Source: Verrucomicrobiales bacterium
Lineage (GTDB): Bacteria > Verrucomicrobiota > Verrucomicrobiia > Limisphaerales > UBA9464
Assembly (NCBI GenBank): GCA_027488845.1
Contig: JAIYBC010000052.1
Span: 1-64,000 of the forward strand
Direction: 5' to 3'
DNA: 64,000 bases
Part shown: in pieces, positions 1-3,045 of the stretch
Position numbering within the stretch: the first letter of the stretch is position 1
Layout of the letters: each line of letters begins with the position of its first letter
Notes under the pieces: generated by a model
Seen by the model: the letters and a program-made list of their open reading frames with translations, nothing else
Databases searched by the model: none
What the model was told of the DNA's origin: nothing
Made by a program: the position numbers and the translations under genes

Positions 1-137
1 CGGAGGTGCGCCTGCGGTGGCCGCTTTGCCGGCCGATACCGCCGCCAAGCGCCGATGACGACCGCTACCAACCGCCGACGACAGTGCTGCCGGCGATCAG
101 CAGGCCTGTAAGGCACATGAGCTAACCACGCCCACCC

Positions 138-193
138 GCCTACCCAGCCTGACCTTCCCGATTCGGTAGCCTACGGACGTGTCCCCAAGGTCG
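138..193. repeat. Direct repeat A, copy 1
   Basis: This 56-base unit recurs at 322-377 with two mismatches. It ends in the core GGACGTGTCCCCAAGGTCG, in which GGAC and GTCC flank a GT and can pair. It lies just before a transposase remnant, as does copy 2. Bases 1-137 before it hold nothing I recognise. Confidence 0.9.
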
Positions 194-293
194 AAACGGG
201 CCATCCGGTCCGGCACAGCCTCAGCTTCTGCAGCTGGCGGGAACGCAAATCGGTCGTCGCCAAACTGCGCGGCATCTATCGCGCGGCCATCGC
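194..293 (+). pseudogene. Possible IS256-type transposase remnant
   Basis: An open frame reads WRERKSVVAKLRGIYRA from about 235 to 285. From memory this resembles the segment of mutator/IS256 transposases that precedes their C-terminal catalytic part, where W-R-x-R-K-A and K-x-I-Y-x-A are common. Only about 30 codons remain. There is no start, no DDE residue can be identified, and both ends stop at repeats A and B. The sequence is a fossil rather than a gene. Assignment to IS256 is tentative; a fragment this short could belong to another family. Confidence 0.35.
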
Positions 294-325
294 TGGCAAC
301 CTAGGGACGTGTCCCCAAGCAGCCT
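294..325. repeat. Direct repeat B, copy 1
   Basis: This 32-base unit starts TGGCAAC and contains CTAGGGACGTGTCCCCAAGC. It recurs at 549-580 with one mismatch. The inner GGGAC-GT-GTCCC is an inverted repeat. It immediately follows the first transposase remnant and overlaps the start of repeat A copy 2 by four bases. Confidence 0.9.
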
Positions 326-377
326 ACCCAGCCAGACCTTCCCGATTCGGTAACCTACGGACGTGTCCCCAAGGTCG
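322..377. repeat. Direct repeat A, copy 2
   Basis: Second copy of the 56-base unit at 138-193. It again lies directly before a transposase remnant, which gives the order A-remnant-B-A-remnant-B. Confidence 0.9.
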
Positions 378-559
378 CGCATGGACACTGGACAACCACC
401 ACCATGATCTCCTCGGTCCGGCTCGACGGCACGAGCGCCTGCATGACCTGCCCCGGGGCCACCGACACCGAGGTCTTCCAAGCCTACGTCCGCGAGGTGC
501 TCGTGCCCACCCTGCGCCCTGGCGACATCGTCGTGTTGGACAACCTCGTGGCAATCTAG
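378..559 (+). pseudogene. IS630-family transposase remnant
   Basis: The frame reads a tract ending H-W-T-T-T-M-I-S-S-V-R-L-D-G, then DTEVFQAYVREVLVPTLRPG and DIVVLDNL. This matches the core of IS630/Tc1-like transposases, where the Asp of V-x-D-N-L is the second catalytic acidic residue. The upstream catalytic Asp, the N-terminal helix-turn-helix and the C-terminal Glu are missing. Reading stops at a TAG (557-559) created inside repeat B. About 55 of the usual roughly 340 codons remain, so the gene is dead. I count it as debris of an insertion sequence trapped between repeats, not as a small gene. Confidence 0.75.
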
Positions 560-599
560 GGACGTGTCCCCAAGCAGCCTTGTGTCCCCAAGCAGCCTT
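549..599. repeat. Direct repeat B copy 2, with an 18-base tandem duplication
   Basis: Bases 549-580 repeat 294-325. The last 18 bases, GTGTCCCCAAGCAGCCTT at 564-581, are duplicated in tandem at 582-599. Bases 600-801 after it hold no gene I can support. Confidence 0.9.
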
Positions 600-801
600 G
601 GCGGACGCGTCGTCGCCGTCGGACATGCAATCCACCTTATTGCCTGAATGACACCGGGGTAAGCGTGTGTCACGGGGTGGGACGGCGGGGATGCTGCGCC
701 TCAAGTCGGCTGCATTCTTGCCGATGCCTTGAGGAACGGGTTTCATAGCCCGAGCGACGGTTCCGGAATTTCGGAATCCAGATCACATCACCTCCGAGAA
801 A

Positions 802-2592: not shown

Positions 2593-3045
2593 TCAACGGC
2601 GCCGCAGTTCCGACGTGACCTTGCGGATCTCGCGGTCGGCCTCGCGTTTGCGGAGGTCTTGCCGCTTGTCGTACTCGGCTTTGCCGGCTCCGACCGCCAA
2701 GAGGACTTTGACCCGGCTGCCCTTCCAATAGAGGGAGAGCGGCACGAGGGTCTGGCCCTTGACGGCGCCGGCGGCCTCCAGCTTCCGGATCTCAGGACGG
2801 TTCAGCAGGAGCTTCCGCGGGGCCTTTGGCGCATGGTTTTCATGCGTGCCGAACCCGTACTCGTCGATGTGCGTGTTATAGAGCCACGCCTGTCCCTTTT
2901 CGATCCGGGCGAAGGAGTCGGCGATCTGGACCTTGCCCGCACGGATCGACTTCACCTCGGTGCCGCGCAGCACCAGTCCAGCCTCGAAGGTTTCCAGGAT
3001 GTGGTAGTCCCGGCGGGCCTTGGAGTTGGTGACGATGTCGGACAT
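2593..3045 (-). CDS. smpB: SsrA-binding protein SmpB
   Basis: A 150-residue protein of the usual length for SmpB. It binds the tRNA-like part of tmRNA and delivers it to stalled ribosomes in trans-translation. The start NSKARRDYHILETFEAGLVL, the motif GTEVKSIR, the segment FARIEKGQAWLYNTHI and the basic, probably unstructured C-terminus with a DKRQDLRKREADREI tract are all typical. It lies 66 bases downstream of rpoZ on the same strand, with a hairpin between them. Its RNA partner ssrA is in this window at 49591-49944. Confidence 0.97.
   Translation of the reverse strand: MSDIVTNSKARRDYHILETFEAGLVLRGTEVKSIRAGKVQIADSFARIEKGQAWLYNTHIDEYGFGTHENHAPKAPRKLLLNRPEIRKLEAAGAVKGQTLVPLSLYWKGSRVKVLLAVGAGKAEYDKRQDLRKREADREIRKVTSELRRR

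Follow-up and report, generated by a model that had tools for sequence, protein, structure and literature searches.

Terminal repeats of a probable multicopy RAYT-type element frame two transposase gene fragments in a Verrucomicrobiales genome

Near the start of the window (the whole stretch of DNA analysed, 64,000 nucleotides, positions 1 to 64,000 of contig JAIYBC010000052.1 of a Verrucomicrobiales bacterium), fragments of two unrelated transposase genes lie one after the other, each preceded by a copy of repeat A and followed by a copy of repeat B. This arrangement raises the question of what the two repeats are and how remnants of different IS families came to stand between them. The earlier note, made from the letters of the window, attributed the pattern to a cassette-like or REP/RAYT-type process that captures short DNA. 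The features of the mosaic, as interpreted in this study, are as follows.

1–189 (+): A1, the putative right-end tail (3' non-coding end) of a RAYT/TIRYT element, by blastn to the tail on contig C65 (1–44 and 38–188 matched)
175–189 (+): end motif GGACGTGTCCCCAAG of A1, by motif search
190–293 (+): insert X1, with a candidate internal chip of an IS256-family transposase at about 202–289
294–325 (+): B1, a solitary end-repeat unit, TGGCAACCTAGGGACGTGTCCCCAAGCAGCCT, similar to single units at other loci of the genome
322–377 (+): A2, a truncated right-end tail (about 52 bp) with the end motif
378–552 (+): insert X2, a piece from inside an IS630-family transposase gene, without IS630 termini
549–580 (+): B2, a second solitary end-repeat unit
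564–599 (+): an 18-bp tandem duplication, GTGTCCCCAAGCAGCCTT twice, its start lying within the motif (GGAC^GTGTCCCC)
623–655 (+): a remnant of 33 nt, probably from the end of another IS; a repeat at the 5' ends of C4 and C48 shares 88% identity with it

Both repeats lie where the earlier note had placed them, and both carry GGACGTGTCCCCAAG, which occurs in the window at positions 175, 305, 359 and 560. The copies of repeat A (138–193 and 322–377) are 92% identical over 63 nt, and those of repeat B (294–325 and 549–580) 97% identical. At up to two mismatches, the four motif sites compare with 0.35 expected in 64 kb, and none of 100 shuffles reached four. A chance origin of the repeats was rejected. 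The tandem duplication described for the end of B is likewise real and exactly 18 bp long (564–581 and 582–599). The inner inverted repeat that had been claimed is present as GGGA-CGTG-TCCC, but it is short, with a stem of only 3–4 bp. The left side of the A1 tail is cut by the contig end, and, compared with other copies, the tail lacks an internal stretch near position 44. Beside the mosaic, translations judged by eye indicated a response regulator (802–1206), a fatty acid desaturase (1445–2497) and SmpB (2593–3045) (− strand).

The genome under study (G000) comprises 69 contigs and 5.39 Mb, of which 2.2 Mb, mainly contig ends, were read directly. It holds 43 copies of GGACGTGTCCCYA, against none of the reversed control, and 28 sites of the 15-mer GGACGTGTCCCCAAG at up to one mismatch, again with none for the reversed control; the possibility that the repeats occur only at this locus therefore fails. 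The majority of full copies of repeat A lie at contig ends, and 24 of the 136 contig ends examined terminate in the left or right end of the element. Twelve of these start in the same tail as A1. At both ends of C65, this tail follows directly on the C-terminus of a protein that ends in RRLWFLESGEYYTLKDIRRTPMEMELARAPQPTPA; at one of the two, the first residues of this stretch are lost. The other 12 lie in a second repeat, in which the motif is inverted and which, where it is long enough, includes the beginning of a gene of this same kind. We infer that the left-end and right-end contigs come from the same element copies. Judging from these ends, the assembly appears to have broken in many copies of one element, which would explain its fragmentation at many places; one such break placed the start of the window inside the right tail of a copy. 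Many other contig ends of this genome terminate in simple tandem repeats (GACCACT or the TTCAACGC/GAAGCGTT type) or in IS-like ends of another kind.

The element consists of a left array of reverse-oriented end motifs, a transposase gene of about 350 codons, a 3' tail of about 270 nt and the end motif GGACGTGTCCCCAA, which is often trailed by further end units. Solitary units resembling B were found at C24:996, C69:892, C69:2030 and C50:16568, and B itself is one more end unit of the usual sort and does not form a repeat family of its own. Repeat A represents the right end (3' tail) of the multicopy element. Short inverted doublets of about 55 bp (C24:1059/1096, and also in L232, L238 and L248) have the appearance of non-autonomous derivatives. 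On this sequence evidence, repeats A and B are very probably the terminal repeats of a multicopy element with a RAYT-type Y1/HUH transposase, of the TIRtron/TIRYT kind, and the RAYT-type process proposed earlier is to that extent supported.

The earlier note had also suggested a search for a Y1 (RAYT) gene. Such a gene is intact in two congeners (G005 and G012), but the G000 assembly contains only the two gene ends (35 codons at the 3' end, a few at the 5' end), and the body is missing. The transposase has 348 aa and matches Pfam PF01797 (Y1_Tnp) above the cut-off (E 5.6e-9), while its match to NCBIfam REP_Tyr_transpos (E 1.5e-14) scores 54 bits, below the cut-off of 80 for that model. The NHFH and YIDLNPVRAG motifs are invariant, with H62-F63-H64 and Y172-I-D-L-N176-P177 unchanged in the five sequences compared. 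HuH together with a catalytic Tyr in Y---NP is the context of class 2 TnpA-REP proteins (PMC6006769), and N176 P177 V178 R179 A180 G181 fits the RAYT motif NP(L/V)(R/K)xG (PMC2817692). About 165 residues follow the core, and no Pfam domain was detected in them. The AlphaFold model of the transposase has a mean pLDDT of 48 and no confident fold. A PDB sequence search gave no match, nor did the NCBIfam IS200 model NF033573 at E ≤ 1. The intact gene of G012 is flanked by the motif in (−) orientation at three upstream sites and in (+) orientation at two downstream sites, and that of G005 by downstream copies. The one complete Y1 gene that Pfam detected in G000, on C12, was set aside; the surrounding 3.3 kb contains no motif copy. 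The C12 gene (L030), with YVHLNP, is a diverged RAYT gene, as is one at C24:5756–6457, which shares 41% identity with the transposase of the element.

Among 19 genomes of the genus, most of the compared genomes being fragmentary, the motif was found in four (43, 18, 17 and 5 sites), and the C-terminus of the transposase subfamily in the same four; the remaining 15 had neither. The probability of this coincidence would be 1/3876 if the genomes were independent, which related genomes are not. Outside the genus, two further genomes of the family had a single motif site each. More distant RAYT genes occur in all genomes of the genus, and in the family and order their number reaches dozens in a genome; a large expansion was seen in G019, G020, G035 and G037, with 27–44 RAYT-like matches per genome. 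Several other RAYT genes of the genus stand between inverted copies of another motif, AGGGACAGGCT, which in one subfamily (L258, L259, L260 and L261) lies about 50 nt upstream and 250–370 nt downstream of the gene.

With the repeats interpreted in this way, the framed fragments themselves have to be accounted for. Both transposase families had been named correctly. X2 (378–552) matches Pfam DDE_3 (E 3e-8) and the NCBIfam IS630 model (E 2e-7), and its DNA is 91% and 98% identical to IS630 copies of two congeners, G012 and G013. The copy in G013 runs on past both X2 junctions, and that in G012 extends beyond the left junction before its contig ends. By sequence, X2 can be firmly assigned as an interior piece of an IS630 transposase gene; it is the sole IS630 (DDE_3) match in the G000 assembly. 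X1 gave weak matches to IS256 HMMs (E 0.12–0.21) and shared 57% amino-acid identity over 30 residues, the matching stretch, with an IS256 transposase of a congener, which hints at an internal chip of an IS256 transposase gene. The flanks of both chips are lost from the window, and a donor copy of either was not found elsewhere in the G000 assembly. No IS630 sequence lies downstream of B2; the third IS scrap (623–655) is there instead.

The simplest reading of the mosaic is that insertions were nested, and that deletion and templated duplication then took place at the end motifs. Most likely, copies or tails of the element would have inserted into old IS256 and IS630 genes, after which activity at the end motif would have deleted the remainder of these genes and duplicated short stretches from the motif, yielding A–chip–B twice. 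The transposase would act on single-stranded ends with GGACGTGTCCCC, presumably by single-strand cleavage. A short tandem duplication was present at 24 of 77 motif sites; among random sites the figure was 19 of 3000, and among sites near contig ends 85 of 2938. On C47 and C44, GGAC^GTGTCCCC marks the start of the duplicated unit to within one base. The enrichment suggests a motif-linked process, although a repeat beside its own kin is itself a slippage substrate. We propose this insertion–deletion history tentatively, at nearly even chances; its deletion and duplication steps come from the reading of a single locus. The order of events is one that we infer, as would be the fate of the chips in either case, left behind or captured.

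A purely passive origin is somewhat doubtful but deserves serious consideration. End units and IS copies might have inserted independently into a neutral region, where recombination or slippage between short direct repeats reshaped them and the role of the transposase was limited to the original insertions. The third IS scrap at 623–655 and the nature of the inserts as dead internal fragments agree with such decay, and direct repeats of 15–60 bp favour slippage, which could have made part of the mosaic. However, decay of this kind does not sit well with tandem duplications being so strongly enriched at the motif across the genome (24 of 77, versus less than 3% in the controls).

The capture of short DNA in cassette fashion, as originally proposed, seems unlikely. 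Under this explanation, the transposase would excise single-stranded pieces between two end motifs, cutting at GGAC^GTGTCCCC, and reinsert them at another motif, so that foreign chips would travel as X plus one end unit and build A–X–B arrays. The A1/B1 and A2/B2 stretches between the presumed cut points do have common ends (GTGTCCCCAAGGTCG ... TGGCAAYCTAGGGAC) around unrelated middles, and the C47 and C44 duplications begin at that same point of the motif. These common ends could nevertheless be microhomology, with some of GGTCG possibly being chip sequence. No second A–X–B locus with captured chips was found, the assembly holds no donor of either chip, and the inventory of what lies between motifs elsewhere, which the earlier note had called for, gave no support to capture, since the segments in the 2.2 Mb examined mostly lack a second copy. 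B proved to be an ordinary end unit, and nested insertion and deletion explain the locus equally well. More improbable still is the fuller version in which a TIRYT-type transposase cutting GGAC^GTGTCCC shuttles unrelated short DNA between end motifs, producing cassette-like arrays with no need of an integron integrase. One known IS or composite transposon spanning the whole of 138–599, which the earlier note had named as a refutation, can practically be dismissed, as no evidence for one was found, the tail, the IS256 chip and the IS630 chip find their matches in distinct elements from distinct genomes, and plasmid records cover at most 34% of the segment, matching only the IS630 chip.

The motif, together with short duplications that extend from one point of it, provides a specific candidate cleavage site. 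Cleavage assays have been reported for REP-type relatives, and none for a TIRYT in the literature consulted.

Among known systems, IS200/IS605 elements share with the present element a Y1 HUH transposase and presumed single-strand transposition, but differ in protein size (about 150 aa, versus 348 here); the inverted terminal motif and the unmatched NCBIfam IS200 model also set the present element apart. REPtrons, whose RAYT genes come with GTAG-headed REPs (Nunvar et al. 2010, PMC2817692), resemble it in the HuH and Y---NP context, NP(L/V)(R/K)xG, inverted flanking repeats, dispersed non-autonomous repeats and the pairing of motif and transposase. In contrast to their repeats, which number tens to hundreds around few genes, many gene copies are present here. 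The REPtron head, GT(A/G)G directly followed by a GC-rich palindrome of at least 5 bp, was not found: the palindrome has a stem of 3–4 bp in most ends read, GTAG adjoins the motif in some left ends only, and CCTACG lies between them in right ends. Folding of the ends as single strands gave no consistent strong hairpin.

The closest likeness is to TIRtrons, RAYT-like genes with flanking inverted repeats, many of them carrying GGGGWSAS, that are also dispersed as dimers and clusters (Di Nocera et al. 2013, PMC3733652). TIRYT is subclass 2.1 of the TnpA-REP superfamily, with a C-terminal helix-turn-helix extension (PMC6006769). The present element likewise combines a RAYT-like Y1 gene and a long C-terminal extension with flanking inverted repeats dispersed singly, in dimers and in clusters. 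Its end TTGGGGACACGTCC fits the GGGGWSAS consensus of TIRtron/TIRYT ends; the reverse complement of the right-end motif is GGGGACAC in G000 and G005, and the ends in G012 are mostly AGGGACAC, one base off. It differs in that the whole element is present in many copies together, one genome having at least 12 right ends, in its long 3' tail of about 270 nt, and in end arrays mixed with other IS chips. By its gene and end motif, the element can reasonably be filed as a TIRtron member, any helix-turn-helix in its extension being hypothetical. Although the local mosaic is unusual, the element adds to a known kind, bringing to Verrucomicrobiota a multicopy, IS-like TIRYT with a defined end motif.
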